A stretch of DNA of 25,273 nucleotides from a virus, in the IMG/VR virus record IMGVR_UViG_3300005935_000121, positions 1-25,273 of that record; one strand, 5' to 3'. A program made the position numbers and the translations under genes. The first letter of the stretch is position 1; every line of letters starts with the position of its first letter. This document shows positions 11,600-25,273 of this stretch, one piece after another. The notes under the pieces are model-generated. The model was not told the DNA's origin. It did not search any database and worked only from the letters and a program-made list of their open reading frames with translations.

Positions 11600-12144
11600 T
11601 ATACCACTTCTTTTCTTTTGAATAAGGTAATTTTATCTAACCATTTAATAAACTCTTCGTAAGGCTGATCCCTTTTACTAAAATTACACTTCTCACAGCA
11701 AGGAACGACATTATCGATATCATATCCTCTGTCAGAGTCGATGCGGTCTATTCCGTTGTAGGTATAATCTCCATTATTATGTCTGCTCTTTTGTATTGTG
11801 GAAGGTTTAGAACCACAGTAATGACAGTTCTGTTGGGTTAGGGTTTTGAATTGTCCCTCTGTTAGTGACCATTCTATATCTCTTTTTAAAGCATTATATT
11901 TATAGTAAGATAAAGCCCTATTGAAAGACGCCTCACCTTCAGGAAGCGTTCTAATTTCTAAAGCTAAACACCCACAGGATTTTGTATAGCCTAAAACTAG
12001 ATTACCTCTTCTTGTCACTAGATCTTTCCCGCAATCGCATTTACATAACCACCTAACACCACCATGCGTATCGTTTTCGGCTCTTTTTACTACTACTAGT
12101 CTGCCAAAACGCTGAGCTGTTAAATCTCTAATCTTCTGTCCCAT
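11599..12144 (-). CDS. Free-standing HNH homing endonuclease, copy 1
   Basis: A 181-residue protein. The N-terminal part is a small zinc-binding DNA-recognition module: LTAQRFGRLVVV then WLCKCDCG (Cys34/36/38) and KSCGC (Cys57/59). The linker LPEGEASFN leads to the HNH domain: CHYCG (Cys107/110), NGIDRIDSDRGYDIDN (residues about 130-145) and PCCEKCN (Cys149/150, Cys153, Asn154). Such enzymes nick or cut DNA at phage conserved genes to spread themselves. The gene lies directly behind an intact terminase gene and has its own promoter, so it is a free-standing, not intron-borne, mobile gene. An AAGGAG site seven bases before the ATG supports the start. Confidence 0.9.
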   Translation of the reverse strand: MGQKIRDLTAQRFGRLVVVKRAENDTHGGVRWLCKCDCGKDLVTRRGNLVLGYTKSCGCLALEIRTLPEGEASFNRALSYYKYNALKRDIEWSLTEGQFKTLTQQNCHYCGSKPSTIQKSRHNNGDYTYNGIDRIDSDRGYDIDNVVPCCEKCNFSKRDQPYEEFIKWLDKITLFKRKEVV

Positions 12145-12166
12145 AATATTCTCCTTGTTATTTCTA

Positions 12167-12183
12167 ATAGGTTGACCACCTAT
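12167..12183 (-). promoter_or_regulatory. Hairpin at the predicted 5' end of the HNH-1 transcript
   Basis: An inverted repeat ATAGGT/ACCTAT with a five-base loop begins at the expected start point (about 12182) of the promoter at 12189-12217. It would give the RNA a structured 5' end. Purely sequence-based. Confidence 0.45.
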
Positions 12184-12188
12184 ATATA

Positions 12189-12217
12189 AGTATAACAGTT
12201 ATGAGATAACTTGTTAA
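12189..12217 (-). promoter_or_regulatory. Sigma-70-type promoter for HNH-1
   Basis: On the minus strand TTAACA (-35, 12212-12217) and TATACT (-10, 12189-12194) are spaced by 17 bases. The spacer contains a perfect inverted repeat AGTTAT-N3-ATAACT (12197-12211), a possible operator. The site lies in the 85-base gap between the terminase stop and the HNH-1 start. Confidence 0.6.
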
Positions 12218-12229
12218 GTGTTTTAACTA

Positions 12230-13753
12230 TTAGTACCACGCCTTCGCTACGAAGGTACGCTTCAAAAGTAACGAAACTGCCATTTCCACGGAATCTAATC
12301 TATGTGCCTTAGAACTGTCATCTGTGAAACCTAACATTTCTCTTACGAAATCATCATGTTCACCTTTAAGGACATAAAAGTTTCCTGCGGCCATCGGAGG
12401 GATCATGTTTAATGTGACTCTTGTTACTTTCCCATCTTTTCTTGGTACTCTAACTAGCTTAGTTTTGTTTATTAGACCATTCTGACGGAACTTCTTATCT
12501 ATTAGCTGATACAATGCACGTTGGAAACCAACATCTTCAATACCTAGCTGTCTAGGAATATAGCGTCTAGCTTCTTTTTCGATCTCTTCGATCTGTTTGT
12601 GGATATCTAGCCTAGCTTCTCGTAATCCAGGAAGAAGGAATAGTTGATTGGTCTTTTTATGAAGACCAACAGTACAGAATGCACTGGGATCAGCAGTTTC
12701 TTTATCTGAAATAGCTTGGTCTGTTCCTGTGACTTTAATGAGGTCTTCGATTTCTATAGGTTCTTTTACTCCTTCTGGAAGAACCATTGTCTTATTCTCC
12801 ACAAGAGTATAATATTTAATGTATTCGGGCTTAATAATCATTCCTCTCATGGCTTCTGCATCATTTTGATACTGTGCCGCAAAAATAATAGGACCATCCA
12901 TCTCTCTCTGAGCAATAAGGTCTAGCTTTTCTCCTTTTTTAGCTTCATCTAGGTCTGTTGTGAATCTAGCAGGCCATAAAACTTTGCCTTTTTCTTCATC
13001 TATGATAGCTCTGCAAGTATTAGGGTTGGTGACGTACTCTTGTCTTTTATATTTTTTAAGCAGATGAGTACCATAATAATCCTCATAATGATATCTAGTA
13101 CCTAACCAATGTCTAAAACCACCCGGATCTAGAGTAGGATTAAGGTTAGCCCCAACCCATTCTACGGTGTCTTGCCTGATATTGGTAGTTCTAGTATTTG
13201 AGAAGTCAAGCATATCGTCAATGATATGTTCGTCAACGTGTAAGGAAACCAACGGTCCCATTACTCCAGAAGCTATAACACTTGGTTCTTTAATGCTTTT
13301 AGTTCTGGTAGCTACCGTAAATCTAGAGTTTGTCCATGGAGATCCTACTTGTTTACCCCAATAAGCAATAATCTTCTCATTGGATTCCAGTCTATTTTGA
13401 ATATCAGCGGCAAACACTTGTGCCTGAGTAGCTGTTCTGGATACAATAAGGATTCTAACATTAGGATTAATCAAAAGTCTAGCGATACTATAACCCACGG
13501 TACAAACAGTAGTCTTCGCATGTCCTCTAGGAGCACGAATGAAAGTAGTCTTGTTATCCCATTGAATATTGAACCATTCCTCGTGGAAATCAGCGAACTC
13601 TAGTTCAGGATAAACGATTTCAGTTACAATCTTCCATGGATTAGCAGCATAGTAAGCTCTTTTTTTCGCAGCAATACACGCTAATTCAACATCTACTGGA
13701 TCAGCAGGTTTAGTGTGAACAATCTTCTTTTTTATTGGTAGCTTTATTCCCAT
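12230..13753 (-). CDS. terL: Terminase large subunit
   Basis: A 507-residue protein that packages DNA into the prohead. ATPase part: FHEEWFNIQWDNKTTFIRAPRGHAKTT (Walker A-like, about residues 73-82), RILIVSRTATQAQVFAADIQ strand, and LVSLHVDEHIIDDML (Walker B region, about 169-182). The nuclease part has Asp345 (VTGTDQAIS), Glu406-Asp407 (LGIEDVGFQ) and Asp487 (HRLDSVEMAVSLL), the acidic triad of the RNase H-like fold. Length is normal for the family and no interruption is seen, so the neighbouring HNH gene has not broken it. The start lies two bases after the stop of the small-subunit gene. Confidence 0.93.
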   Translation of the reverse strand: MGIKLPIKKKIVHTKPADPVDVELACIAAKKRAYYAANPWKIVTEIVYPELEFADFHEEWFNIQWDNKTTFIRAPRGHAKTTVCTVGYSIARLLINPNVRILIVSRTATQAQVFAADIQNRLESNEKIIAYWGKQVGSPWTNSRFTVATRTKSIKEPSVIASGVMGPLVSLHVDEHIIDDMLDFSNTRTTNIRQDTVEWVGANLNPTLDPGGFRHWLGTRYHYEDYYGTHLLKKYKRQEYVTNPNTCRAIIDEEKGKVLWPARFTTDLDEAKKGEKLDLIAQREMDGPIIFAAQYQNDAEAMRGMIIKPEYIKYYTLVENKTMVLPEGVKEPIEIEDLIKVTGTDQAISDKETADPSAFCTVGLHKKTNQLFLLPGLREARLDIHKQIEEIEKEARRYIPRQLGIEDVGFQRALYQLIDKKFRQNGLINKTKLVRVPRKDGKVTRVTLNMIPPMAAGNFYVLKGEHDDFVREMLGFTDDSSKAHRLDSVEMAVSLLLKRTFVAKAWY

Positions 13754-13754
13754 T

Positions 13755-14273
13755 TTATTGACTCATATTATCTAGGGCTGTAAGAGCAGACTCTACTTCA
13801 TCATCTGTCATCTCTGGATGTACCTGAACGATCTTAATACGATTCTCTTCTCTTACTTGTTGTGGTGTTGAGACTAAGATATCCATCTGAGTTGGCTGAT
13901 CTAGTCCTAATAATTTAGCTCTACGTTCCATGATCTTAACTACTTTATCAATAGCACCAAGATCCTTACTTTCTATTACAGCTTCCATGGCAACATCTAG
14001 AAGGAGATCTAATCTACCAAGTTCAAGGCTTCTTACCTCATGAGCCTTTTCAGTTATCTCATTCTGGATATATTCAAGTGATCTAATAACACACTTCCTA
14101 GCACCAGATAGACTCATTTTCATTATATCAGCTATTTGTTGATAGTTTTTACCAGCACTTCTAAGCTCAAGAGCCTGACGCTCTCGAAACTTAGCTGTTG
14201 CTAGGGTCTTAGGGGCAGAGCTAGGTGGTCCTCCTTTCCCTTTTTTGTTTTTTTTGAGAGGTGATATAGTCAT
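13755..14273 (-). CDS. terS: Terminase small subunit (putative)
   Basis: A 172-residue protein. A basic N-terminus (PLKKNKKGKGG) is followed by a helix-turn-helix around residues 35-65 (RQALELRSAGKNYQQIADIMKMSLSGARKCVIRSL), then a long helical region (ITEKAHEVRSLELGRLDLLLDVAMEAVIESKDLGAIDKVVKIMERRAKLLGLD) with oligomerisation character. The phrase RRAKLLGLD is common in small terminase subunits. It sits directly before TerL. It should recognise the packaging site and load TerL. The start is in a TAATG overlap with the upstream gene. Confidence 0.82.
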   Translation of the reverse strand: MTISPLKKNKKGKGGPPSSAPKTLATAKFRERQALELRSAGKNYQQIADIMKMSLSGARKCVIRSLEYIQNEITEKAHEVRSLELGRLDLLLDVAMEAVIESKDLGAIDKVVKIMERRAKLLGLDQPTQMDILVSTPQQVREENRIKIVQVHPEMTDDEVESALTALDNMSQ

Positions 14274-14566
14274 TATTTCTTTTCTCTATTTAAAGCTAAT
14301 TTAAGCTGAGTTACATCTTCATTCAACAATACTTGAGCATCATGTAGTGCAACACGGTTACAGAACTCATCTCTTTGATCTGTGATTCTACTAATAATCT
14401 CTTGTCCCTTATCAGAAGCAGCAAAACTCATAAGATCATTAAATATGGTAGATGCAATGCTCATGAAAAGTAGTGGATCTTCTAAATAACGTTGGTCTTG
14501 ATCTATTTCTGCTGTTTCTTTTACGAATAATTCAAATTTACGGGTATCAATGCTCAGTTTTTCCAT
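14273..14566 (-). CDS. Small helical protein upstream of terminase
   Basis: A 97-residue acidic, mostly helical protein (SIASTIFNDLMSFAASDKGQEIISRITDQRDEFCNRVALHDAQVLLNE). No known motif. An exact copy of a 16-base ribosome-site/start block precedes the ATG (GGAGAATAACTA before ATG), shared with two other genes of this operon. It is coupled to TerS by a TAATG overlap. An accessory role in packaging is possible only by position. Confidence 0.6.
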   Translation of the reverse strand: MEKLSIDTRKFELFVKETAEIDQDQRYLEDPLLFMSIASTIFNDLMSFAASDKGQEIISRITDQRDEFCNRVALHDAQVLLNEDVTQLKLALNREKK

Positions 14567-14607
14567 TAGTTATTCTCCTTATTTACGATTGGAATACCAT
14601 TATTTTC

Positions 14608-14769
14608 CTATTTCCATACTGCTACTGTACTGCCACAGTGCTTACATTTAGATGCACCATACTTAATAATACCTAAACATGCATCACATCTACGGTATTT
14701 AATAAGTTTTCCAATCCACCAACTTATTTTCAATCTTATTCCACTTCTATCTGTTATTAGTTTTCTCAT
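14608..14769 (-). CDS. Small zinc-ribbon protein of 53 residues
   Basis: A short gene whose ATG overlaps the stop of the capsid-like gene (TAATG) and which ends at a TAG at 14608-14610. The protein begins MRKLITDRSGIRLKISWWIG and has a CDAC...CKHCG pair (Cys28, Cys31, Cys42, Cys45), the layout of a rubredoxin/zinc-ribbon knuckle pair with ten residues between the two. A good ribosome site (AAGGAG) lies nine bases upstream, inside the preceding gene. Probably a nucleic-acid- or protein-binding zinc ribbon; the function is unknown. Confidence 0.6.
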   Translation of the reverse strand: MRKLITDRSGIRLKISWWIGKLIKYRRCDACLGIIKYGASKCKHCGSTVAVWK

Positions 14770-15224
14770 TAGTTATTCTCCTTGCTTATAAGTTGTACGC
14801 CATAATCGTTATCAATAACACTAACATCTTTCTTATTGGTTTCTACTACTAAGAATAGAGCACCACGTCCAGGTTTAAGGGAATCTGATTTATATATATG
14901 AATCATACCTAAACGACCTATGTAATCCTCATTTTCAGTATAATCCATATTTTGAGTACGCCATGTATCTTCAATTCTAACTTCACCACCAAAGTGTTGT
15001 GCTCCATCACGCATGTCACTTTTTAATTCCACTACTTGCTTGGGGTGCAAAACTGCCCTTAGATCATTTTTTATACCCCAACATAAGTCTTCTTTTTCCT
15101 CTAAGATATAAAGAGCGCTATCTAAAACATCCATTGTTAGTTCGTCATTGGTTATTACCACTGAATGAAACTTGTTAAATAGGTCGCCGATATTATCGAA
15201 CTCTTTTACATTAAATTTACTCAT
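14769..15224 (-). CDS. Short major-capsid-protein-like paralogue (C-terminal half only)
   Basis: A 151-residue protein that lines up with the C-terminal half of the major capsid protein encoded at 18115-18975. Matching stretches (this protein / capsid protein): IGDLFNKF / LTGLFAGL; ELTMDVLDSALYILEEKED (28-46) / DFTDDNFDEARYVLEAQDA (144-162); VLHPKQVVELKSDMRDG (58-74) / VLHPRQTSDLRKSWRDG (171-187); EDYIGRLGMIHIYKSD / GEYMGVSVFQSSKC; RGALFLV / VGAMFIQ; and a DNDYGVQLISKE / DDNSGVPIITDA end. It lacks the capsid N-terminal arm and about the first 120 residues, so it cannot form a normal capsomer. It is intact, with a strong ribosome site. Capsid accessory, assembly modulator or exclusion factor are all possible (inference). 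Confidence 0.7.
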   Translation of the reverse strand: MSKFNVKEFDNIGDLFNKFHSVVITNDELTMDVLDSALYILEEKEDLCWGIKNDLRAVLHPKQVVELKSDMRDGAQHFGGEVRIEDTWRTQNMDYTENEDYIGRLGMIHIYKSDSLKPGRGALFLVVETNKKDVSVIDNDYGVQLISKENN

Positions 15225-15324
15225 TAGTTATTCTCCTATTTCCATTAATATTGTTTATATAGGATTTAAATTCATTATAGGTCATATTATTTTTACCTCT
15301 ATTGCAAACTTTGCAGCAAAGAAG
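15217..15324 (-). pseudogene. Out-of-frame C-terminal remnant of another HNH endonuclease
   Basis: Overlapping the last codons of HNH-2 in another frame, and continuing behind its stop, the minus strand encodes LLCCKVCNRGKNN followed by MTYNEFKSYINNIN. This matches the end of the HNH family here (HNH-3: VPCCKHCN..., SYEEFLSWINKIY; HNH-1: VPCCEKCN..., PYEEFIKWLDKI). An in-frame TAG stands just upstream at 15325-15327 and no start codon precedes the zinc motif. HNH-2 already has its own PCCIKCN, so this is a second, truncated copy. The MTYNEF part could be translated as a 22-residue peptide but no ribosome site supports it. Confidence 0.6.
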
Positions 15325-15907
15325 CTATTTTAAATAGCATGTCATGGTTAAATCCACCGTTTCTGATCTGGACCATATAGTCTCTTTCCAGGAACTCGGA
15401 TAAGGTCATAGTGTATTTGCGTTTGTTGCATTTAATACAACATGGAATCATGTTATCTACATGATAATAATCAGTATTATCAATACGATCAAGTCCACTA
15501 TAAACATAGTCTCCATTAATATTCGGGACGGTATCTGTTTGACTAGGTTCTTTTCCGCAATATTCACACGGTTGGCTAGATAGTCTTTTAAAGTCTTCTT
15601 TGCTCATGTCAAATTTAATCCCTCTCTTCTTTGCATTTGAGATATATTTGCGATATACATGGTTAAAGGAAGCTTCTCCTACAGGTAGTTTGAATTGTTT
15701 GATTTTCTTGAGGCACCCGCAACTTCTAGTTGTTCCTCTTTGTAAGGAAGATCCTCTAACTATAGTTTCTTTACCGCATTCACACTTACAGTCCCACATT
15801 GCCATTCGGTGCTTGTCCATTCCTGCGAACTCTTTTACTGTTAACATACCAAATTTCATGTTGGTTAAGTCGATTATTCTTGTGCTGATTTCTCTTAAAT
15901 TAGTCAT
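15299..15907 (-). CDS. Free-standing HNH homing endonuclease, copy 2
   Basis: A 202-residue protein with the same architecture as HNH-1: LTNMKFGMLTV, MWDCKCECG (Cys40/42/44), RSCGC (Cys63/65), LPVGEASFN, CEYCG (Cys114/117), NGDYVYSGLDRIDNTDYYHVDN and IPCCIKCN (Cys156/157, Cys160, Asn161). It has a longer, unrelated C-terminus after about residue 170 (RDYMVQIRNGGFNHDMLFKIASLLQSLQ). Its start overlaps the stop of the membrane-protein gene (TAATG), with GGAG inside that gene as ribosome site, so it reuses the local translation signals. It sits directly before the capsid-like short gene, which is unbroken. Copy 2 is more distant from copies 1 and 3 than they are from each other. Confidence 0.9.
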   Translation of the reverse strand: MTNLREISTRIIDLTNMKFGMLTVKEFAGMDKHRMAMWDCKCECGKETIVRGSSLQRGTTRSCGCLKKIKQFKLPVGEASFNHVYRKYISNAKKRGIKFDMSKEDFKRLSSQPCEYCGKEPSQTDTVPNINGDYVYSGLDRIDNTDYYHVDNMIPCCIKCNKRKYTMTLSEFLERDYMVQIRNGGFNHDMLFKIASLLQSLQ

Positions 15908-16197
15908 TATTTGTTCTCCTGTTGAATCTGTTTAATATCATCTAATGTTAGGTCTAAGCTATTCATGTAATTTAGCATTTGTTCTATTTCTTCTATATTT
16001 GCGTTAATATTCTCATAGGTTTCATCTATGTTATAATCTATTATTTGTTCTTCATATACTTGTTTTTCATATATAGGAACTAAGGTCTTATTCTCTTCTA
16101 GTGTTTGGGCCGTGAAGAACCCGCATGTAAATATTGTTGCTGCCACTAGTAGTGCGCCAATTGTTTTCCCTGCTGTCTCTGTGAAGTTCTTAGTCAT
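15907..16197 (-). CDS. Small single-TM membrane protein, first gene of the leftward operon
   Basis: A 96-residue protein. Residues about 12-31 (TIGALLVAATIFTCGFFTAQ) form one membrane helix after a short basic head, followed by an acidic, helical, probably coiled-coil tail (YEEQIIDYNIDETYENINANIEEIEQMLNYMNSLDLTLDDIKQIQQ). The Cys within the helix is not in a good lipobox, so a lipoprotein is unlikely. An AAAGGA site eight bases before the ATG supports the start. Being first after the promoter, it may be made early and strongly. It could be a membrane-associated host-takeover, exclusion or spanin-like protein; no family recognised. Confidence 0.6.
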   Translation of the reverse strand: MTKNFTETAGKTIGALLVAATIFTCGFFTAQTLEENKTLVPIYEKQVYEEQIIDYNIDETYENINANIEEIEQMLNYMNSLDLTLDDIKQIQQENK

Positions 16198-16221
16198 CTT
16201 ATTGTCCTTTAAGTTGTTGAT

Positions 16222-16241
16222 GTAAGAGCCTTTTCTCTTAC
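16222..16241 (-). promoter_or_regulatory. Hairpin near the 5' end of the leftward operon mRNA
   Basis: An inverted repeat of seven bases (GTAAGAG / CTCTTAC, six-base loop) starts about four bases after the predicted transcription start (about 16245). It would cap the 5' end of the leftward mRNA. Based on sequence only. Confidence 0.5.
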
Positions 16242-16251
16242 TTATAGAACA

Positions 16252-16280
16252 AGTATACGCTCATTTAGTACTTACGTCAA
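16252..16280 (-). promoter_or_regulatory. Main leftward promoter (sigma-70 type)
   Basis: Minus-strand TTGACG (-35, 16275-16280) and TATACT (-10, 16252-16257) are separated by 17 bases. The site stands 55 bases before the first gene of the operon, which runs from the membrane protein to the endolysin. A ten-base block AGTACTTACG overlapping the -35 and spacer (16267-16276) occurs again at 16373-16382, a possible paired operator. Confidence 0.8.
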
Positions 16281-16316
16281 GGGGTTTAGTGCATTTTATT
16301 GTACTTTTTTACAAAT

Positions 16317-16345
16317 AAAATAGTTTAAAATAGTTTAAAATAAAT
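16317..16345. repeat. AT-rich tandem repeat
   Basis: Two exact copies of AAAATAGTTT stand side by side (16317-16326, 16327-16336), followed by a degenerate third unit. A related AAAATAGTT stands near 16717. The block lies in the divergent control region between the leftward promoter and the first rightward promoter. It could be a binding site or an unwinding element; there is no other evidence for an origin. Confidence 0.5.
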
Positions 16346-16449
16346 TATTTCACTGTTTATCTTTATTAATCAAGTACTTACGCATAATAGATGAAGTAAA
16401 CTATTAAGAAAAATGATAGAAAAGTGAGGTTTATTAGTTTTAAAGGTAC

Positions 16450-16478
16450 TTGACAGCTATTTTAGGAATTGGTATAAT
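16450..16478 (+). promoter_or_regulatory. Rightward consensus promoter P1
   Basis: A perfect TTGACA (16450-16455) and perfect TATAAT (16473-16478) with a 17-base spacer. The predicted start is near 16485. No convincing coding frame follows for about 430 bases, only a 21-codon frame at 16505-16570, so the product may be an untranslated or leader RNA that reads towards the tRNA genes. Confidence 0.85.
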
Positions 16479-16484
16479 AGCAGT

Positions 16485-16785
16485 TAAGAACAAGACATCG
16501 AAAGATGGCTTTTGACCGACCTTTAAAGAGGGCAAAAATAATACATCTAAACTGCTTCCTTAATGAATAGCTCTCTTCTTTTCAAGAATCAAACCCAGAA
16601 CATAAAGACTAACCACAAGTATAACACCTATACTAATAGTTGCATATATTTCTTGGTTTTTTTTCTCCACAAAGAGAAAAAGAGAACTGAGTTCTCAGGT
16701 AGTGTATATTTTAAAATAAAATAGTTCATGAAAGGATAGATCTAATAATAACCCACCCTCGGATTATGTGGACATTAACAAATAC
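16485..16785 (+). other. Transcribed-looking region without a clear gene
   Basis: This 300-base stretch lies downstream of P1 and before P2. It holds a small CATC-GAAA-GATG hairpin (16496-16507), an eight-pair TTTTTCTC/GAGAAAAA hairpin (16660-16681) overlapping a GAGAAC/GTTCTC hairpin (16682-16696), and a 21-codon frame with no good ribosome site. A small regulatory RNA is possible. I see no protein gene on either strand. Confidence 0.3.
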
Positions 16786-16814
16786 TTGACAGATAATAGA
16801 GTATATACCATAAT
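16786..16814 (+). promoter_or_regulatory. Rightward promoter P2, before the tRNA genes
   Basis: TTGACA (16786-16791) and CATAAT (16809-16814) with a 17-base spacer. The context ACTTGACAG is shared with the promoters at 16450 and 19006. The predicted start, near 16821, coincides with the first base of a hairpin. It should drive the tRNA genes. Confidence 0.75.
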
Positions 16815-16820
16815 AGTCCT

Positions 16821-16840
16821 TAGTTGGGTAAGCCCGACTA
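16821..16840 (+). promoter_or_regulatory. Hairpin at the predicted +1 of P2, followed by a T run
   Basis: TAGTTGGG / CCCGACTA with a four-base loop TAAG, eight pairs including one G-U. A T-rich run (16846-16851) follows after five bases, so it could act as an early attenuator or as a 5' protective hairpin. Confidence 0.5.
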
Positions 16841-16867
16841 TCATATTTTTTCTCTCCTTTCTGTTGT

Positions 16868-16913
16868 GGAGATCCTGCCTGGAATTTAGTCACTCTAGGC
16901 GGGATTTTCCTTT
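16868..16913 (+). terminator. Terminator-like hairpin before tRNA-Ala
   Basis: ATCCTGCCT (16872-16880) pairs with AGGCGGGAT (16897-16905) with one G-U pair; the outer GGAG can extend it into the following T-rich run TTTTCCTTTT. The 16-base loop is large for a terminator. It may attenuate P2 transcripts or be a processing signal for the tRNA just behind it. Confidence 0.4.
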
Positions 16914-16916
16914 TAT

Positions 16917-16989
16917 GGGTATATAGTTCAGTTGGAAGAACGTCACTCTGGCAGAGTGAATGTCGCAGGTTCAAATCCTGCTATATCCA
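16917..16989 (+). tRNA. tRNA-Ala, anticodon GGC
   Basis: A complete 73-base cloverleaf. The acceptor GGGTATA/TATATCC contains the G3-U70 wobble pair that identifies alanine tRNAs. The D stem is GTTC/GAAC with AGTTGGAA loop, the anticodon stem TCACT/AGTGA with loop CTGGCAG (anticodon 16950-16952), and the T stem GCAGG/CCTGC with TTCAAAT loop. The discriminator is A73 and the CCA end is not encoded. It reads GCC (and GCT by wobble) codons. Confidence 0.92.
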
Positions 16990-16997
16990 TATAATTT

Positions 16998-17031
16998 GGC
17001 CTAGTAGCATAATGTAATATTCCACTAGGTC
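16998..17031 (+). other. Hairpin between the two tRNA genes
   Basis: GGCCTAGT (16998-17005) pairs with ACTAGGTC (17024-17031), eight pairs with one G-U, 18-base loop, then GTTTAAAAA. It could be a weak terminator or an RNA processing signal separating the tRNAs. It does not fold into a tRNA. Confidence 0.4.
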
Positions 17032-17044
17032 GTTTAAAAATAAT

Positions 17045-17117
17045 GCTAATGTAGCTCAGTTGGTAGAGCATCTCTTTAGTAAGGAGAATGTCATGGGTTC
17101 GATGCCTATCATTAGCT
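17045..17117 (+). tRNA. tRNA-Thr, anticodon AGT
   Basis: A complete cloverleaf. The acceptor GCTAATG/CATTAGC is perfectly paired, the D stem is GCTC/GAGC, the anticodon stem TCTCT/GGAGA with loop TTAGTAA (anticodon 17078-17080), and the T stem ATGGG/CCTAT with TTCGATG loop. The G1-C72 and C2-G71 pairs fit threonine identity. Discriminator base is T, not the usual A, and CCA is not encoded. The anticodon begins with A, which is uncommon in bacteria outside arginine ACG. It would read ACT, a very common Thr codon in this phage. Confidence 0.88.
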
Positions 17118-17130
17118 CTAAGGAAATAAT

Positions 17131-17159
17131 TTGACAGTATTTTCTCTATGTGGGATAAT
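17131..17159 (+). promoter_or_regulatory. Promoter P3 of the capsid operon
   Basis: TTGACA (17131-17136) and GATAAT (17154-17159) spaced by 17 bases, 14 bases behind the tRNA-Thr gene. The predicted start is near 17166, leaving a leader of about 77 bases before the scaffold gene. Confidence 0.8.
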
Positions 17160-17172
17160 ACTCTTAAATGTC

Positions 17173-17226
17173 AATATTCCCATTAACGGGGATATTAAAA
17201 CTAAAATAACGGTTCTGGATAGAACC
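17173..17226 (+). promoter_or_regulatory. Structured 5' leader of the capsid operon (two hairpins)
   Basis: Hairpin one: AATATTCCC / GGGGATATT, nine pairs with one G-U, six-base loop (17173-17196). Hairpin two: GGTTCT-GGAT-AGAACC (17211-17226). The second ends directly before the AAGGAG ribosome site (17227-17232), so it may tune start-site access or protect the mRNA. It is not a known riboswitch class to my reading. Confidence 0.5.
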
Positions 17227-17242
17227 AAGGAGAATTTAAACA

Positions 17243-18094
17243 ATGCCTAATGAAGCTGGACAGCCTAATGAGGAACAAGTAACCGAAGAATCTAACGTAA
17301 ACATCAACGAGAAGCTGATTCAACAAGAACAGTCTTTCAACAGAGAAAAGCAAGATATTATCGCTAGACGTGATAATGCTACAGCGGCTCGAAGAGAAGC
17401 GTTTGAACTAATGAACCAAATGCTACCGGATGGTAACAAGATTGATCTGACAAATCCGAATCTAGAAACTGTAAGAAATTTCATTTCAAATAAAGACCTT
17501 AATACCCCCACAAAGGGTAAAGGTAACAACACAAACACAACTGAAGATTTTTCTGCACAACTAGAACAACACCTTTCACCATTAAAGAAACAAATGGCTG
17601 AATTGGAACAAATGGCATCTACTGCTACAAGAGATCGTGATAACTTTATGTTGGGTAATACCATCAAAGACACAGTTCTTGCTAACGGTGGAGCTAAAGG
17701 TCCATTAGATGCTGTGACTAGAATTTTAAGAGACATGATGATCGTGGATACGAAATCTGGCTCTGCTAAGGTTATTCTTAATAGGGAAGCTGTTGAAAGT
17801 GCTGGATATCAGGCAGTCAAGGTTGATGATGGACACGATGTTGTACTACTTTCTGTGGAAGAATTCATTAAGGATTTCCTTCCTAAGAACTCGTGGGCGC
17901 TGGATGGCGCTGGTGGTGGAGCAGGGTCTAATTGGAGTAGAAACAATGGTCAAGCAGATGTCAATATGAATATGTTTAATGGCCTGAGCGACGATCAACA
18001 AAGAGCCGCTTATCGTAATCTATCTCCACAACAAAAGCAATCAATCAAAAACCAACGCTCCTTATCCGGTAAGAAAACTAAGATTTGGGGTTAA
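17243..18094 (+). CDS. Capsid scaffold-like protein
   Basis: A 283-residue hydrophilic protein directly upstream of the major capsid gene, the usual place for the scaffold. The N-terminal 65 residues are acidic and helical (EKLIQQEQSFNREKQDIIARRDNATAARREAFELMNQ). A coiled-coil-like segment lies around residues 105-135 (AQLEQHLSPLKKQMAELEQMASTATRDRDNF), and there is a disordered Gly/Asn stretch and a Gln-rich basic C-terminus (LSPQQKQSIKNQRSLSGKKTK), as expected for the capsid-binding end of scaffolds. An AAGGAG site lies ten bases before the ATG. No protease domain was seen, so cleavage, if any, uses another enzyme. Confidence 0.75.
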   Translation: MPNEAGQPNEEQVTEESNVNINEKLIQQEQSFNREKQDIIARRDNATAARREAFELMNQMLPDGNKIDLTNPNLETVRNFISNKDLNTPTKGKGNNTNTTEDFSAQLEQHLSPLKKQMAELEQMASTATRDRDNFMLGNTIKDTVLANGGAKGPLDAVTRILRDMMIVDTKSGSAKVILNREAVESAGYQAVKVDDGHDVVLLSVEEFIKDFLPKNSWALDGAGGGAGSNWSRNNGQADVNMNMFNGLSDDQQRAAYRNLSPQQKQSIKNQRSLSGKKTKIWG

Positions 18095-18114
18095 TACTCT
18101 AAAGGAAATATATT

Positions 18115-18975
18115 ATGGCTAATACTACAGTCACAACACTAGATTCCGTTATTAATAGCGAAATCATCAATGACGCTATCGCACAGGAAGCTCGCGCTAA
18201 TGTCGTTGTAGCACCTCTAACTGACGAAATGAATATTGCTAATGAATCCGGCCTAGTCGGACAATTCGCTAAACTAGACACTCTAGTTGCTACAGCAGTC
18301 GCTGAAGAAACAGATATTACTGGTAGTGCAGTAACACCAACTGACATCCAGATCACAGCATCTGAGGTTGGTGTTTTAGTGCCAATTACTGATAAGTCTA
18401 TCGCATCTGCTAAAGGTATGATGAGAACACTTGATACTTATGCAAAAGCTTGTGGTCGTGCTGTTGCCGATAAGCTTGAAGGGGATCTAACTGGTCTTTT
18501 TGCTGGTCTTAATGACGGTACTGCCGTTGGTTCTACTGGTTCTGACTTCACTGACGACAACTTCGATGAAGCTCGTTATGTCCTTGAAGCACAGGATGCT
18601 CAGAATTTTGGCGACATGGTCTGCGTATTGCATCCACGTCAAACTTCTGACCTTCGTAAGTCTTGGAGAGATGGTGGAAACTCCGCAGCTTTCATTCTGC
18701 AAGAAAAGTTCATTGATAAAAAGGGCTATCAGGGCGAATACATGGGCGTTTCCGTATTTCAGTCAAGTAAATGTCCTACTGCTAATACAGCCGCAGACGT
18801 TGTAGGCGCAATGTTCATTCAGGATTATACTCTTGGTCTAGTTACTAAGTGGCTTTCCAGACTAGAATTTGATCGTGATGCTTCTGCTCGTATGACTGAA
18901 GTTGTAGTGACTTCAAATTACGGGGTTGGCGAAATCGACGACAATAGTGGCGTTCCCATTATAACGGACGCCTAA
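18115..18975 (+). CDS. Major capsid protein (HK97-fold type)
   Basis: A 286-residue protein that should form the capsid shell. The N-terminus MANTTVTTLDSVINSEIIND with VVAPLTDE, a central ASEVGVLVPITDKSIASAKGMM and C-terminal VLHPRQTSDLRKSWRDGG, GEYMGVSVFQSS and GAMFIQDYTLGLVTKW regions match the pattern of coat proteins in tailed phages without a long N-terminal delta domain. The VLHPRQ motif (171-176) and the following YMGV strand are typical of the P/A domains. Scaffold gene upstream and strong terminator downstream support the call. Its codons are slightly richer in C/G than the average gene here, fitting high expression. A shorter paralogue lies on the opposite strand at 14769-15224. Confidence 0.88.
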   Translation: MANTTVTTLDSVINSEIINDAIAQEARANVVVAPLTDEMNIANESGLVGQFAKLDTLVATAVAEETDITGSAVTPTDIQITASEVGVLVPITDKSIASAKGMMRTLDTYAKACGRAVADKLEGDLTGLFAGLNDGTAVGSTGSDFTDDNFDEARYVLEAQDAQNFGDMVCVLHPRQTSDLRKSWRDGGNSAAFILQEKFIDKKGYQGEYMGVSVFQSSKCPTANTAADVVGAMFIQDYTLGLVTKWLSRLEFDRDASARMTEVVVTSNYGVGEIDDNSGVPIITDA

Positions 18976-19005
18976 GGTAGACGTTGTTTAAAACAAACAA
19001 CATAC

Positions 19006-19034
19006 TTGACAGCTACTACATACTATGATACTAT
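19006..19034 (+). promoter_or_regulatory. Promoter P4 inside the capsid terminator region
   Basis: TTGACA (19006-19011) and TACTAT (19029-19034), 17-base spacer, in the same ACTTGACAG context as P1 and P2. The predicted start (about 19041) falls inside the left arm of the terminator that follows the capsid gene. It should drive HNH-3 and the downstream cluster. Confidence 0.65.
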
Positions 19035-19035
19035 T

Positions 19036-19068
19036 AGAGGGCAGGGTAATAACGCCCTGCCCTCTTTT
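19036..19068 (+). terminator. Strong intrinsic terminator of the capsid operon
   Basis: GAGGGCAGGG (19037-19046) pairs perfectly with CCCTGCCCTC (19055-19064), with an extra A-T pair outside, an eight-base loop and TTTT after it. It stands 61 bases behind the capsid stop and would separate high-level capsid expression from the genes downstream. Confidence 0.88.
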
Positions 19069-19091
19069 AACTTAAACAAAGGTATTATATT

Positions 19092-19799
19092 ATGGGAAGA
19101 AAAGCTAAAGACCTAAAAAGTCAAAGGTTCGGTAAACTAACAGTAATAGAACAAACTACAGAGCGTATCAGAAATGCTGTAGCTTGGAAATGTAAATGTG
19201 ATTGCGGTGGTGAGATAACCTCATCTAGCTCAGAACTACAAAGAGGAAATGTTCAATCATGCACTTCATGTCGTAGAGCACCTAATTTTAAAGATCTTAC
19301 AGGACAAGTTTTTGGGGAATTAACTGTTGTTAGTTATGCTGGACTTGCAGATAACTACAAGAAGGCTAGATGGTTGTGTAAATGTAGTTGTGGTCGGAAG
19401 ATTACTATTCACTCTGGCGATCTCTCATCAGGCAATACTAGGACTTGCGGCAATGGAGTTCATAGACAGCTTCCTTCTGGAGAAGCAGCACTTAATACTC
19501 TAATTAGGGTTTACAAAAGACATGCAGAAGAAAGAGATTACTACTTTAATCTTACTAAAGAACAATTCAGAGATATAACCTCACAGAATTGTCATTACTG
19601 CGGAATAGAACCATCCACTATCCAAAAAGCAACAGGTGGATATTATATATATAATGGCATAGACCGTAAAGATAACACTGTAGGATATACGGTAGATAAC
19701 TGCGTTCCTTGCTGCAAGCACTGCAATACTGCTAAATTAGAAAGATCTTATGAGGAATTCCTTTCTTGGATTAATAAGATCTATAACAAACATAACTAA
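19092..19799 (+). CDS. Free-standing HNH homing endonuclease, copy 3, with doubled N-terminal zinc module
   Basis: A 235-residue protein. Two N-terminal zinc modules stand in tandem: LKSQRFGKLTVIE...WKCKCDCGG...GNVQSCTSC (residues 8-60) and LTGQVFGELTVVS...WLCKCSCGR...GNTRTCGN (69-121). Then LPSGEAALN and the HNH domain: CHYCGIEPSTIQK (167-179), NGIDRKDNTVGYTVDN (188-203) and VPCCKHCN (205-212). HNH-1 and HNH-2 have only one such module, so target recognition here may cover a longer site. In the second module the last Cys of the usual SCGC is lost (TCGN). It lies right behind the intact capsid gene on its own promoter. AAAGG ten bases upstream serves as ribosome site. Confidence 0.9.
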   Translation: MGRKAKDLKSQRFGKLTVIEQTTERIRNAVAWKCKCDCGGEITSSSSELQRGNVQSCTSCRRAPNFKDLTGQVFGELTVVSYAGLADNYKKARWLCKCSCGRKITIHSGDLSSGNTRTCGNGVHRQLPSGEAALNTLIRVYKRHAEERDYYFNLTKEQFRDITSQNCHYCGIEPSTIQKATGGYYIYNGIDRKDNTVGYTVDNCVPCCKHCNTAKLERSYEEFLSWINKIYNKHN

Positions 19800-19823
19800 C
19801 ACTTAAATTATCGGGGGATAATA

Positions 19824-20189
19824 ATGGCAATGAAATCAATACCAGATGGGAAATCAAAGGTCACTCTATGTAAGTTTGATCACAGAACAAACAAACTAAA
19901 TATCATCGAAACTATGGTCGGTGGTCCTAAACAACCTCTCCAATATTGGACTACTCCAAAACCTCATGGCAAAGGTTGGGTTCTTCTAGAAAGATATGCT
20001 CTATCTTTATATCCTAAACACCTTAAAGCCCTCCAAGAACAATATCCAGAAATCTATCAGGAATTAATAGGTCAGTTTATTGAAACTGAAATTGAGGATA
20101 TTCCTGCGCCTAAAGTGAAGAGAAAAGGCGGTAGACCAAAAGGTAGTAAAAACAAGCCAAAGGGCGTAAAAGTAGTTGAGGTAGAATAA
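19824..20189 (+). CDS. Small AT-hook-type DNA-binding protein (putative)
   Basis: A 121-residue protein. The body (1-90) is unfamiliar; the C-terminus carries KRKGGRPKGSKNKPKGVK (about residues 99-116), a good AT-hook: a GRP core framed by Lys/Arg, which binds the minor groove of AT-rich DNA. This genome is AT-rich, so chromatin-like binding of phage or host DNA is plausible. A GGGGGAT site precedes the start, and the stop overlaps the next start (TAATG). Confidence 0.55.
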   Translation: MAMKSIPDGKSKVTLCKFDHRTNKLNIIETMVGGPKQPLQYWTTPKPHGKGWVLLERYALSLYPKHLKALQEQYPEIYQELIGQFIETEIEDIPAPKVKRKGGRPKGSKNKPKGVKVVEVE

Positions 20190-20392
20190 TGCCTATTGCA
20201 AAGAAAGCAAAAAGATATAAACATCCTGCTAGGGAGCTAATAGAGAGAACCCTATATAAATATATAGAGCAATACCAGATGAACAATGCTGGTACTTATC
20301 CTACTCCACAATGGATAGAGGCTAAGAGACAATATTTAATGAAAATGGCTCAGAGATTAGAAAAACAACATAAGCTCATTGGTGGTTCTTAG
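20189..20392 (+). CDS. Small basic helical protein
   Basis: A 67-residue basic protein (AKKAKRYKHPARELIERTLYKYIEQYQ at the N-terminus, WIEAKRQYLMKMAQRLEKQHK near the end) predicted to be mostly helical. No motif. It starts in a TAATG overlap with the AT-hook gene and stops two bases before the glycosyltransferase-like gene, so it belongs to the same operon. The basic surface suggests nucleic-acid or partner-protein binding, unproven. Confidence 0.55.
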   Translation: MPIAKKAKRYKHPARELIERTLYKYIEQYQMNNAGTYPTPQWIEAKRQYLMKMAQRLEKQHKLIGGS

Positions 20393-20394
20393 CA

Positions 20395-21045
20395 ATGATA
20401 GCTGTACTCACGCCATCTTTAACCGGAGAGTTTATTGAGGGCTGGTATAAAGCCCTTTCTGCGTCTATAGGAGATACGGAATACACTATATATACTTGTA
20501 CTGGAAAACCTATATTAGAAGCTAGGAATAAAACTACCACTGCTGCTTACCAAAACAAAGAAGTCTCACACTTTCTTTTTTTGGACGACGATATCCTCCC
20601 TTCCCCTCTAGGAATACAGAAACTATTAGAAGCCGATAAACCTATAATAGGTGGAGTATGCTGTTATAAGACTACACCATACAAAGCTGTATTTGCTAAC
20701 CTAAATACCAAGAATGAGATGTACGACTTTGATCCTAAGCCTAAATACCCGTCTACTCCTTTTGAGGTAGATGCTACTGGTTTTGGATGTCTATTAGTAA
20801 AAAGAGAAGTACTAGAAGCTATAGGATATAAAGACTGGTTTAGATGGGACTGGATAAGAAATAAATCTAATGGTCGTGCTTACAGATTTGCAGGTGGTGA
20901 AGACGTGTGGTGGTGTGAGAAGGCTAAACTACATGGATATAAGGTTTTTATAGACCCAAAATGCCGTTGTTTACACGTTTCGAGGACTAGTGGTAAAATA
21001 TACCCGAAATCACTAGAAGCAAAGTTTTGGAAGAGGTTTGACTAA
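20395..21045 (+). CDS. Glycosyltransferase-like GT-A protein (GT2-type)
   Basis: A 216-residue protein. It opens with IAVLTPSLTGEFIEGWYKAL, then KPILEARNKTTTAAYQN and the nucleotide-sugar/metal motif HFLFLDDDILPSP (about residues 60-72). VDATGFGCLLVKREVLE (120-137) and FAGGEDVWWCEKAKLHGYKVFIDPKCRCLHV (about 163-195) match the acceptor half of small phage GT2-like enzymes. The expected transfer is a sugar from a UDP- or similar donor to DNA, protein or glycan; the acceptor is unknown. Size is typical for a single-domain enzyme. It is coupled by TAATG to the large glycosyltransferase behind it. Confidence 0.78.
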   Translation: MIAVLTPSLTGEFIEGWYKALSASIGDTEYTIYTCTGKPILEARNKTTTAAYQNKEVSHFLFLDDDILPSPLGIQKLLEADKPIIGGVCCYKTTPYKAVFANLNTKNEMYDFDPKPKYPSTPFEVDATGFGCLLVKREVLEAIGYKDWFRWDWIRNKSNGRAYRFAGGEDVWWCEKAKLHGYKVFIDPKCRCLHVSRTSGKIYPKSLEAKFWKRFD

Positions 21046-23654
21046 TGCATAGATGGAAAAACAAAGACGGTATTATTATTACCTTAGCTGACGAACCGCA
21101 GATTTTCGGGCAATTTCACACTAACCAGAAAAAGGGATGGACATATTTAGGTAAAGAAACATCAACCACTAAGCTTACATTGAAGAAGTCTGGCAAGCAG
21201 TTATGGAACCTATGTGGTGCTGAAGTCCGTGAACGTTCTATAGATTGGGCACTAGATAAGCGTCCTAGAGTAGTTCTCGTTGTGGATACACACGATTGGT
21301 CTTTTGCTGAGACAGCTAAGCAGATTATTAGCCATTTGAGCGATAGATTCCAATTCGCAGTAGTACCAATGTACTCAAAACCACAGCATAAAGGTATTGA
21401 ATGCGATATCGTTTATTGCTTATGGCACTCGGCACATAAAAATATTAAAGAAATGTACGATGCTAAAGCCTATATAGGTAATCTTACAGATCATTATTCA
21501 TCATTTCAAGAAGCTATAGACACTTATGACGGGTGGACCTGTTCTAACTTTATGTTATTTCAGGAGTTATGTGAACAAGTAGATCCAAGCAAGGTAAAAC
21601 TTGTTAGCGTAGGTGTGGATAGTAGTCGCTTTGTTTGTTCCCCCGGCAAGGCGGCTGCTCCCACCTTTAAAATTGGGTGGACAGGGAATACCAATACTAT
21701 CAGTAATATCAAGGGTCTTCCAGAGATAAAGGAAGCATGTAAATTAGCTGATGTTGAGCTATTAGTCCAAGATGCAGCTACTAATCCTATACAACATGAC
21801 CAGATGTACGATGAATTCTATTCTAAGATCTCATGTTATGTCTGTGCCTCAGAATTAGAAGGTACTCCAACACCTGTGTTAGAAGCTTTGTCTTGTGGTA
21901 TTCCTGTCATTACGACTAGAGTAGGTATTACATCTCAAGTAATCAAGCATGGCGTGAATGGATTCTTCATTCCTAATAGAGAACCAGCAACAATCGCTGG
22001 AGCTATAGAAGCCATTACCAAACTAGATACCAATACTATACAACGTACTAGTAGAGCATCAATATATCCTTATTCATGGGATAAACAAATTAAACTACTA
22101 GAAGATATGTTTGATAGCTATATAGATAACCCTATTAAAAGAACTAAGAAGGTAATACTAAAGAAATCCAACAAGAAGTATGTATCTCTCCTAGTACCGT
22201 ACTATAATGGATTACGATTCATTCCAGAACTAATGAAGAACCTGGAATCACAAGACCTTTCTAACACAAAGGTCTATTTCTACGATGATGGTAGCACTGA
22301 TGGATCATCCTATATGGTACAATCCTTAGCTCATAACTTAGGAACTGAGGGTAAAGACTACGAATTCTATACTAATGAATCCCGTCAGGGAATTGCGGCC
22401 ACGATAAATTTATTTATCAAGGAAGCTAAAGAACCGTATATCCTTAAACAGGATGTAGATGATCTATGTGAACCCGATAGAGTCTCAACATTACTCAGTA
22501 TTATCCTAGAGAAGGAAGTATCTGCCGTATTTGGCAATATTGAATGGTTCATGGGTAGTGACACTGAGATTAGATATCCTATGGACTGGATGAAGACCAA
22601 TAAGTCAGAAGAATTCATTAAAAACGAATATCTTCAAACTCCCTGTAATTGTAGAGTTTCCTTTGCCCAATGTTTATGTGATAGAAATGTGTTTAAAGAC
22701 GTAATAGGGTTTTTAGACGAACAATTAAAATATGGTGAGGATCAGGAAATTATAGCTAGGTTTATGTATAGTGGTTTACCATTTGCTTTAGATACTAAGC
22801 CTACCTATTTATACCGTAAACACATTGGATCAACTACATCAGGACATGCACCAATATCTATCTCAAAGAAGGAGATATGGACAAGAATGCCTAACTATAG
22901 TAGAATACTACATATACCAAAGAGAAATGTTCTTCTCTCAAGTTATTTTTTCGGCGCACCAGATCCTCAAGATAACAACAACCAAGTAGAGGCTAATGAC
23001 CCAAGTAAGATAGATAACTACTACAACAGTATAGAAAAACACTTAGACAATATTGACCTTATAATATTTCATGATGGTCTATCTAAGGAATTTATGAGTC
23101 TATATCCAAAGATAATCTTTAAGTACCACGAGTTAGATTTTTTTTCGACGAATGATGAGCGATTTCTTGCTTATGTGGAATATCTAAACAATAGAAAAGA
23201 TTATACAGATAGAGTACTAATGACAGACCTATTTGATGTAGTATTCACTAAGAACCCTTTCGACCTAATAAGTAATGAATATAAGCTATACTGTGGTCTA
23301 GATGAAAGAGAGAACATCATCTCTAATAACGGTTGGGTAATGGATAAGATGAAAGAAGCCTTTAATAAAGTAGTCTATGAAGACAAACAGATTCTCAATG
23401 CAGGAGCGATAGGAGGAACTATACAACCAGTACTAAATCTCCTAAACCTAATGAAAGACACATTCATATCCCTAGATAGCAATAAGAACATAAACATGGC
23501 CGTATACAATAAGGCAGTCTATGACTTATTTTCCGATGAGGAAATACACAAGGGCGCGCCATTTACCTCACGCTTCAAACGTTTTGAGAGACATAGTACC
23601 AGTAGATTCAAGAGGTACTCTAAGCATAGTAAGGCATACATTATCCACAAGTAG
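21045..23654 (+). CDS. Three-domain glycosyltransferase fusion protein
   Basis: An 869-residue protein. Residues 1-70 are a small leader. Residues about 75-360 are a GT-B (GT4-like) enzyme: IGWTGNTNTISNIKGL, then ELEGTPTPVLEALSCGIPVITTRVGI (from about 269) with the sugar-nucleotide-binding Glu. Residues about 375-610 are a GT2 domain: VSLLVPYYNG, YFYDDGSTDGS (about 412), ILKQDVDDLCEPDR (about 468) and GEDQEIIARF (about 564). Residues about 625-869 are a third, GT-A-like domain with VLMTDLFDVVF (about 725), QILNAGAIGGT (about 784) and an end like FTSRFKRF...AYIIHK. All three keep their key motifs. It probably builds a short chain of different sugars; the acceptor is unknown. Confidence 0.8.
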   Translation: MHRWKNKDGIIITLADEPQIFGQFHTNQKKGWTYLGKETSTTKLTLKKSGKQLWNLCGAEVRERSIDWALDKRPRVVLVVDTHDWSFAETAKQIISHLSDRFQFAVVPMYSKPQHKGIECDIVYCLWHSAHKNIKEMYDAKAYIGNLTDHYSSFQEAIDTYDGWTCSNFMLFQELCEQVDPSKVKLVSVGVDSSRFVCSPGKAAAPTFKIGWTGNTNTISNIKGLPEIKEACKLADVELLVQDAATNPIQHDQMYDEFYSKISCYVCASELEGTPTPVLEALSCGIPVITTRVGITSQVIKHGVNGFFIPNREPATIAGAIEAITKLDTNTIQRTSRASIYPYSWDKQIKLLEDMFDSYIDNPIKRTKKVILKKSNKKYVSLLVPYYNGLRFIPELMKNLESQDLSNTKVYFYDDGSTDGSSYMVQSLAHNLGTEGKDYEFYTNESRQGIAATINLFIKEAKEPYILKQDVDDLCEPDRVSTLLSIILEKEVSAVFGNIEWFMGSDTEIRYPMDWMKTNKSEEFIKNEYLQTPCNCRVSFAQCLCDRNVFKDVIGFLDEQLKYGEDQEIIARFMYSGLPFALDTKPTYLYRKHIGSTTSGHAPISISKKEIWTRMPNYSRILHIPKRNVLLSSYFFGAPDPQDNNNQVEANDPSKIDNYYNSIEKHLDNIDLIIFHDGLSKEFMSLYPKIIFKYHELDFFSTNDERFLAYVEYLNNRKDYTDRVLMTDLFDVVFTKNPFDLISNEYKLYCGLDERENIISNNGWVMDKMKEAFNKVVYEDKQILNAGAIGGTIQPVLNLLNLMKDTFISLDSNKNINMAVYNKAVYDLFSDEEIHKGAPFTSRFKRFERHSTSRFKRYSKHSKAYIIHK

Positions 23655-23728
23655 TAAATGTCATGAATGTCACAACTAAAAGTAACTACATAGCAATAAT
23701 ACTATACTCACATAACACAGGGGAACAA

Positions 23729-24442
23729 ATGAAATATAACATCCTTACAGTAGCTAACCATTCCTATTTTAATTTCCTGAAGCTTTTTATTTCTTCCGCG
23801 AGAAGATATCTCCCAGAAAATAAGATAAACTTCCTATATGTGTACGATACGGGACTCACTTCTCAGGATCTGGAGTGGTTATCCACAAGAGATGTAGTAG
23901 TAAGACCTACTAAGGTAGATATGGCTAAAATGGACAATATTCATGATGAAGTATGGGAAACCATAACGTATTCAAAGACTTCCTTCCTTAAAGATAGTCT
24001 TATGAGAGACCCTACTCCTACTATAATGGTAGATGTAGACTGTATGTTCGTTAATGATATGTTCTTTTGGCTAGAATTATTTGAAGGTAATAGAGACTTT
24101 ATCTTATGTCGTACTACCTATAAGAAGCCTAAGTATATTGGATGTTTTTTTGCCGCGATTGACATAAAAGAATCTCTTCCCTTCCTTGATCTGTGGATAA
24201 AACAGATACCTAAGATGAATACAATGGTAAAAGAAAGCCCAGCCCTAAGTAAAGTAGTAGAAGACCATAGCCTACAATACAACTATGGGGAGATAAGAGA
24301 TAAGGTTATATGTGCCCCAGTACATCTAACAACACCAGATAGTTGTATATTACACATGAAGTCCTATAAGGACATAAGAACAGTAGATCAACGTATAACC
24401 CAGAAAGAAGTACTACCATACCTAAAGGAGCTAGATCTATAA
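23729..24442 (+). CDS. Glycosyltransferase-like GT-A protein
   Basis: About 237 residues from the ATG at 23729, which has AGGGGA just upstream; an in-frame ATG at 23663 would add 22 residues but has no ribosome site. MKYNILTVANHSYFNFLKLFISSARRYLP and FLYVYDTGL are the first strands. TPTIMVDVDCMFVND carries the DxD metal motif. CFFAAIDIKESLPFLDLWIKQIP, DHSLQYNYGEI and CILHMKSYKD match the acceptor part and terminal metal His of GT8-like enzymes. It is related in type to the third domain of the preceding protein. It overlaps the ATP-grasp gene by TAATG. Confidence 0.68.
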   Translation: MKYNILTVANHSYFNFLKLFISSARRYLPENKINFLYVYDTGLTSQDLEWLSTRDVVVRPTKVDMAKMDNIHDEVWETITYSKTSFLKDSLMRDPTPTIMVDVDCMFVNDMFFWLELFEGNRDFILCRTTYKKPKYIGCFFAAIDIKESLPFLDLWIKQIPKMNTMVKESPALSKVVEDHSLQYNYGEIRDKVICAPVHLTTPDSCILHMKSYKDIRTVDQRITQKEVLPYLKELDL

Positions 24443-25273
24443 TGGGACTTAAGATAGGTATCCTAGAGAATAGGGACTATGATCGTAAGCATAAGATACT
24501 CAATGCTGCTTTCGTAGAAGGATGTAAGAAATATGATATGGAGTATGAGTTCATAGACTTCCATGCTTATGATTGGTATGAGAAGGTAATGGACCCTACC
24601 TTTGATGGATTCTTTCATCGTGCTATGTACTGGCCTAATGAGAAAGATATGGCTATGGAGAAGATCTATGCCATGGAACAAGCAGGACTAATAGTACATC
24701 CTACATCTAACATGATAATGCTCTATGAGAACAAGAGGGCTATAGCCCATTACTTACAGCTTAATGGCTTCCCTTATATACCCACAATGGTATGCTACAA
24801 GAGAGATGAAGCTATGATTGCAGGAGAGGTACTAGGCTTCCCTATAGTAGTGAAGACTAGCCTAGGTAGTAGTTCTCATGGTGTTAGTATAGTTAGGGAT
24901 AAGGAAGAACTTATGGCGCGGGTAGATACATCCTTCTCCTCTGGGATACCATCAGTACAAAAACACCACCTAAGTAGACATTCAATAGAGTACGACTCCA
25001 TCATCCTACAGAAGTTTATCCCTAATGCCACAGAATGGAGAATAACTGTGTGCGGAAATAAATATTGGGGAAGGATCAATGATAAACCTACTAAGGACTT
25101 CAGAGCTTCTGGTACTGGACTAATCATATATGATGATCCCCCTAGAGAAGTATTAGATATAGCAAGGAGACTAAGAGTAGCTATGAAGACAGATATCTTC
25201 TGTGTGGATATCCTAGAGAGTGATGGAGAGTATTACATCAGTGAGTTCTCTGTCCTATTCGGCACTGTAGGTA
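24442..25273 (+). CDS. ATP-grasp ligase, RimK-like (3' end outside window)
   Basis: The frame stays open from the TAATG start at 24442 to the window end (at least 277 residues). Visible parts: MGLKIGILENRDYD, a preATP-grasp region with GFFHRAMYWPNE, then GFPIVVKTSLGSSSHGVSIV (ATP-binding Gly-rich loop, from about residue 132), ILQKFIPNATEWRITVCG (from about 188) and FCVDILESDGEYYISEFS (from about 252; metal-binding Asp and Glu). These are hallmarks of ATP-grasp carboxylate-amine ligases, which join a carboxylate to an amine through acyl phosphate. With glycosyltransferases upstream, it may attach an amino acid or peptide to a glycan or protein (inference). Confidence 0.82.
   Translation, partial: MGLKIGILENRDYDRKHKILNAAFVEGCKKYDMEYEFIDFHAYDWYEKVMDPTFDGFFHRAMYWPNEKDMAMEKIYAMEQAGLIVHPTSNMIMLYENKRAIAHYLQLNGFPYIPTMVCYKRDEAMIAGEVLGFPIVVKTSLGSSSHGVSIVRDKEELMARVDTSFSSGIPSVQKHHLSRHSIEYDSIILQKFIPNATEWRITVCGNKYWGRINDKPTKDFRASGTGLIIYDDPPREVLDIARRLRVAMKTDIFCVDILESDGEYYISEFSVLFGTVG

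Follow-up and report, generated by a model that had tools for sequence, protein, structure and literature searches.

Fusions of two glycosyltransferase (GT) units are already common in phages. In proteins that match phrog_1579, such as Mycobacterium phage Myrna gp234 and Klebsiella phage KpLz-2_45, a C-terminal GT domain lies behind a GT2-type domain in a chain of ~460-500 aa, and the genes often have further GT genes and head genes nearby. Two GT-A units on one polypeptide are found in heparosan synthase 2 and K4 chondroitin polymerase, which make long polymers. Three different GT domains are present in one protein of the chlorovirus PBCV-1, A111/114R (860 aa), with a proposed role in attaching three sugars in the glycan of the major capsid protein (PMC7826918).

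Here we discuss a tailed-phage protein, encoded on a 25,273-nt stretch of DNA (the window), in which a GT4-like GT-B unit, a GT2 unit and a third, GT-A-like unit follow one another (Table 1). Like the phrog_1579 fusions, it carries the third domain at its C terminus behind a GT2-type domain, and its gene has other GT and head genes in the vicinity; unlike these two-unit proteins, it has an additional N-terminal GT-B unit, a more canonical GT2 unit and the residue N817 (see below). The three-unit protein hence extends the two-domain fusion and is not a new type of system. Judged by how it would work, its closest analogue is chlorovirus A111/114R; this likeness is one of working principle only, as the A111/114R domains differ in kind and order (GalT, XylT, and FucT) and belong to an algal virus. 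Heparosan synthase 2 and K4 chondroitin polymerase are the top Foldseek matches of the full-length model, with a low whole-model TM-score, and they differ in their long products and in having no GT-B unit.

The fusion gene is one uninterrupted frame with an ATG start and no internal stop. Positions 12025 to 25273 of the window (13,249 bp) recur with 100% identity in a second contig (L002), which runs 4,980 bp beyond the window end. This identity indicates that the two contigs represent one viral population and are only partly independent, and the presence of the same fusion in both makes an assembly error unlikely. Searches of viral contigs with the whole protein, the portal, the capsid, the GT-B part, and the ATP-grasp gene returned the near-identical L002 alone. 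Extension sought at both ends of the genome gave no new sequence, and the genome is incomplete.

Table 1. The fusion gene, its predicted units and neighbouring features (window positions)
Feature	Position	Strand	Evidence
Major capsid protein	18115..18975	+	phrog_544 4.6e-18; upstream of GT cluster
Promoter-like site and strong terminator-like hairpin	19006..19065	+	between capsid gene and GT cluster
GT-A/GT2-like gene, 216 aa	20395..21045	+	phrog_1574 5.8e-19 (unnamed), phrog_34859 glycosyltransferase 7.8e-4, Pfam Anp1 0.0056
Three-GT fusion protein, 869 aa	21045..23654	+	ORF, family matches, identical copy in L002
N-terminal extension, residues 1-72	21045..21260	+	no family match; model pLDDT ~35
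GT-B (GT4-like) unit, residues ~73-372	21261..22160	+	PF00534, NCBIfam GT4; C-terminal donor half only
GT2 unit, residues ~373-622	22161..22910	+	PF00535; PDB matches such as chondroitin synthase
Third GT-A unit (GT6/PLOD-like), residues ~623-869	22911..23651	+	phrog_1579, model and fold search, conservation
N817 codon AAC	23493..23495	+	conserved acidic position; LH3 Asp191 by motif comparison
Possible GT-A enzyme, 259 aa	23663..24442	+	DVD motif alone
ATP-grasp ligase, RimK type	24442..25272	+	PF08443 5.2e-6, TIGR00768 1.7e-14; cut by window end

Family matches, together with the fold of the third unit, support three fused GT units in series on one polypeptide, as the preliminary description had proposed. 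In the GT-B unit, PF00534 matches residues 255-328 (E 1.7e-17; 63.9 bits against a Pfam cut-off of 26.4), NCBIfam GT4 families match residues ~248-358, and the EX7E motif is EGTPTPVLE (residues 272-280). Residues 1-247 have no family match in Pfam, PHROGs or NCBIfam, and the full-length model predicts a beta-alpha-beta element at residues 76-109 (pLDDT ~54). The C-terminal donor half is thus supported, while the N-terminal acceptor Rossmann domain is putative. In the full-length model, for which the input alignment contained no GT-B relatives, the third unit comes out well, the first half of GT2 fairly well and GT-B poorly. For GT2, PF00535 matches residues 381-529 (E 6.8e-22; 78.6 bits against a cut-off of 23.3) and the motifs DDGSTD (414-419), DVDD (470-473) and GED (564-566) are in place; this is a complete GT2 enzyme. 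The domain search and structure prediction suggested as a check therefore recovered GT2, the third unit and the donor half of GT-B, while the acceptor half gave no match and was poorly modelled.

The third unit matches phrog_1579 (glycosyltransferase, PHROGs) over residues 624-854 (E 1.8e-10). The match covers profile positions 251-478 of 482, such that the N-terminal half of the profile is unmatched and its C-terminal domain is matched over its length. Modelled alone, the unit reaches pLDDT 88.5 and pTM 0.86, and its best fold matches are GT6 enzymes (bovine alpha1,3-galactosyltransferase, the blood-group A/B enzymes and BoGT6a), with VIA Z 17.5 and rmsd 3.7 for 214 residues, and Foldseek 1.7e-10. 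The GT6 enzymes differ from it in sequence (10-15% identity), and no GT6 enzyme was among the PDB sequences matched in a profile search. The nearest viral models are giant-virus proteins (Hyperionvirus and Tupanvirus) at 30-32% identity, which is at least that of the phage relatives. The collagen glucosyltransferase domain of human LH3/PLOD and mimivirus R699 share a DxxD motif, a C-terminal His and the GT-A fold with the third unit, and LH3 and COLGALT1 occur among the structural matches of the full-length model. However, the match to PF25342 (GT_PLOD; residues 712-802, E 3.4e-4, 20.3 bits) is under the Pfam cut-off of 27, the third-domain profile found no LH3 sequence among PDB sequences, and the position of LH3 Asp191 is Asn in our protein. 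On the predicted model, the third unit is a GT-A enzyme with the fold of alpha1,3-galactosyltransferases (GT6) and collagen glycosyltransferases (PLOD). Collagen modification, which the PLOD likeness brought to mind, was rejected, since translations inspected by eye have no collagen-like repeats and the PLOD match does not reach the cut-off.

The metal site of LH3 consists of Asp112, Asp115, and His253 (PMC6082870), and the DxxD plus C-terminal His site of this PLOD type is kept in the third unit as D728, D731, and H868. The DxxD motif spans residues 728-731, and E754, NAGAIGG (785-791) and the terminal HK (868-869) are also present. D728, D731, N785, G787, G790, G791, H868, and K869 are invariant in 56 of 56 aligned sequences, and E754 is invariant among 38. 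A second apparent active-site change in an earlier alignment (A3), E753D, was a misalignment: the conserved Glu is E754, invariant in alignment A5. The expectation that the key motifs of all three units are kept hence holds except at residue 817, which is Asn in the fusion protein, whereas 51 of the 55 relatives have Asp there and the other 4 have Glu. By motif comparison, this position would correspond to LH3 Asp191, a residue essential for activity, as the Asp191Ala variant is folded yet inactive (PMC10342707). The loss of an acidic residue that every one of the 55 relatives retains raises the possibility that the third unit is catalytically dead and serves as an acceptor- or glycan-binding module, in which case the protein would add at most two kinds of sugar, whatever the acceptor. 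We take this possibility seriously, and on balance we doubt it. The metal-site DxxD, E754, NAGxxGG, and the terminal HK are all kept, which argues against a dead domain, as such a domain need not retain them. Moreover, Asn is still able to bind sugar hydroxyls. N817 may instead weaken the third site or alter its use of donor.

A profile search with the third domain identified 69 viral loci, one of which is L002 itself. Most viral relatives are ~450-550 aa long and end in the third domain, which is preceded by GT2/GT7-like sequence in those tested, and some are stand-alone. Two are longer, L011 (758 aa) and L012 (647 aa), with extra N-terminal parts that have no family match. An assignment of the L011 N-terminal part as a GT was dropped; it had been a guess from a DVD motif alone, with no family match and no detectable relation to the product of the gene at 23663. 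By BLASTP, the GT-B unit is absent from the third-domain relatives, and a GT-B plus GT2 fusion first considered in the gut phage record MT838735 is in fact two separate adjacent genes. In genome contigs, the third domain was found at 21 loci, mostly in Bacteroidota. A GT2 gene of one subfamily is directly upstream of a stand-alone third-domain gene in 14 of the 14 Bacteroidota loci examined (L078, L079, L080, L082-L085, L087-L091, L093, and L095). In a tree with long branches, the third domain of the fusion protein groups with L012, L007, L077, and L086 and apart from the main phage group, and the support for this split is modest (92/87). The joining or adjacency of GT2 and the third domain in several lineages argues that both act on one product. 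This pairing in phages and Bacteroidota renders plausible the earlier suggestion that one polypeptide adds several sugars in order, a suggestion that N817 and the unproved acceptor half of GT-B weaken.

Within the cluster, the gene at 20395-21045 has a stop that overlaps the start of the fusion gene. Two flanking GT-like genes had been described; the upstream gene has weak GT matches, while the assignment of the downstream gene (23663-24442) goes back to its DVD motif, and its product has no match in any library searched. The ATP-grasp ligase is complete in L002 (335 aa; 12418-13425), where it is followed by a second GT-B gene that is present in that contig only (PF13524, 1.3e-7). The genes at 20395, 21045, 23663, and 24442 and this second GT-B gene overlap or all but abut, as in a tight operon. 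With an ATP-grasp ligase in the cluster, the genes might make a small glycoconjugate or peptide-sugar to which the ligase joins an amino acid, with no macromolecule being modified. We consider this very improbable: the roles of RimK-type ATP-grasp enzymes include protein modification, and transporter or other small-molecule genes were not seen.

The gene order in the window is scaffold-like, capsid, promoter-like site and hairpin, HNH gene, two small genes, GT-A gene, fusion gene, the gene at 23663 and ATP-grasp. It continues in L002 with the GT-B gene, holin-like and spanin-like genes, a consensus promoter and the portal gene. The promoter-like site at 19006-19065 reads TTGACA-N17-TACTAT (0.12 occurrences of the pattern expected by chance) and is immediately followed by a hairpin of 12 pairs (-24.8 kcal/mol, z -6.7) with a T tail. 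Together they could produce a very short terminated RNA or separate the capsid and GT units. Given the terminator after the capsid gene and the run-on into the holin- and spanin-like genes, the cluster cannot be regarded as just a section of a capsid operon; although it sits among head genes, it is likely its own transcription unit with the lysis genes.

Several other features of the region were recorded. The promoter just upstream of the portal gene (L002, 15511-15540) is a perfect sigma-70 consensus, TTGACA-18-TATAAT. Three HNH-type genes in the window (11599-12144, 15299-15907, and 19092-19799) have similar N-terminal regions; two of the three were scanned and share their PHROG family matches. 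In the tail region, the genes of the pairs 2143-2862/2872-3666 and 3667-5223/5223-6785 are alike, which points to apparent tandem duplications (DNA repeats D1 and D4). A 22-nt repeat spans the ribosome-binding site and start codon before four minus-strand genes (window 14558-14579, 14761-14782, 15216-15237, and 15899-15920), and genes for tRNA-Ala and tRNA-Thr (window 16916-17118) are located ahead of the head genes.

On which molecule might the glycan be built? We tallied 111 genes in the neighbourhood of 31 phage relatives. Other GTs lead the PHROG counts, followed by portal, major head, head maturation protease, and head morphogenesis proteins; these are raw counts with no random baseline and as such are suggestive only. 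The L011 and L017 relatives adjoin portal genes, and in phage Ariel the gene order is major head gp13, GT gp14 and then the relative, gp15. Virion proteins of Myrna, which encodes the relative gp234, are reported to be glycosylated (PMC12363180); the enzyme responsible may be gp234 or another Myrna protein. That relatives recur next to capsid and portal genes points to the virion rather than to DNA or the host surface, albeit not as proof.

The cluster could instead alter the host surface (lipopolysaccharide, capsule or teichoic acid) and thereby block superinfection or change a receptor, given that polysaccharide and envelope enzymes make up most of the GT2 and GT4 matches and that the GT2 and third-domain pair consists of cellular genes in Bacteroidota. 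This is unlikely in our view. In addition to the placement of relatives near head genes, the fusion protein lacks any membrane-like stretch (its highest mean Kyte-Doolittle value over 19 residues is 1.3), which also counts towards a soluble enzyme, and a membrane-anchored GtrB, a GtrA-like flippase or another membrane partner was not found among the scanned genes of the window and L002, which represent an incomplete genome. Phage GTs that act on DNA are known, the T4 glucosyltransferases (PMC13216743), and Myrna gp234 and Ariel gp14 weakly match a TET-associated GT family. The GTs of the cluster might accordingly glycosylate phage DNA on a modified base for protection against restriction. We regard this as quite improbable, because the fusion protein has no match to the TET-associated family and the scanned genes of the window and L002 (~30 kb) include no base-hydroxylating or base-modifying gene, a weak point given the incomplete genome.

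Virion proteins are thus our preferred acceptors, and we give roughly an even chance to the fusion protein being a soluble multi-glycosyltransferase that builds a short glycan on them. In this model, the joined GT4-like GT-B, GT2 and GT6/PLOD-like units would add consecutive sugars of one short glycan from one polypeptide, using nucleotide sugars drawn from the host, and the adjoining transferases and the ATP-grasp ligase would join in building it. The acceptor would be a virion protein (capsid, tail tube or other) modified in the cytoplasm. We infer the donors, the order of sugars, the acceptor, and the activity of each site. An oligosaccharide on DNA, capsid, tail or host surface had been envisaged before; the neighbourhood suits an oligosaccharide, and the gene placement of relatives shifts the emphasis to the virion as its probable site. 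The terminator between the capsid gene and the cluster may speak against a virion acceptor, and through N817 the third unit may be inactive. A bolder version seems unlikely to us: a one-protein assembly line that attaches three sugars in sequence to a virion protein, completed by the neighbouring transferases, with the ATP-grasp ligase appending an amino acid, the product being a defined, possibly glycopeptide-like glycan and the arrangement independent of the chloroviruses.

Three transferases in one gene give hints as to which sugars are consecutive and provide a compact enzyme to test. To our knowledge, glycosylated phage particles are a recent discovery and few such phages are known; the family to which the third domain belongs is wide, which suggests that particle glycans may occur in many phages.
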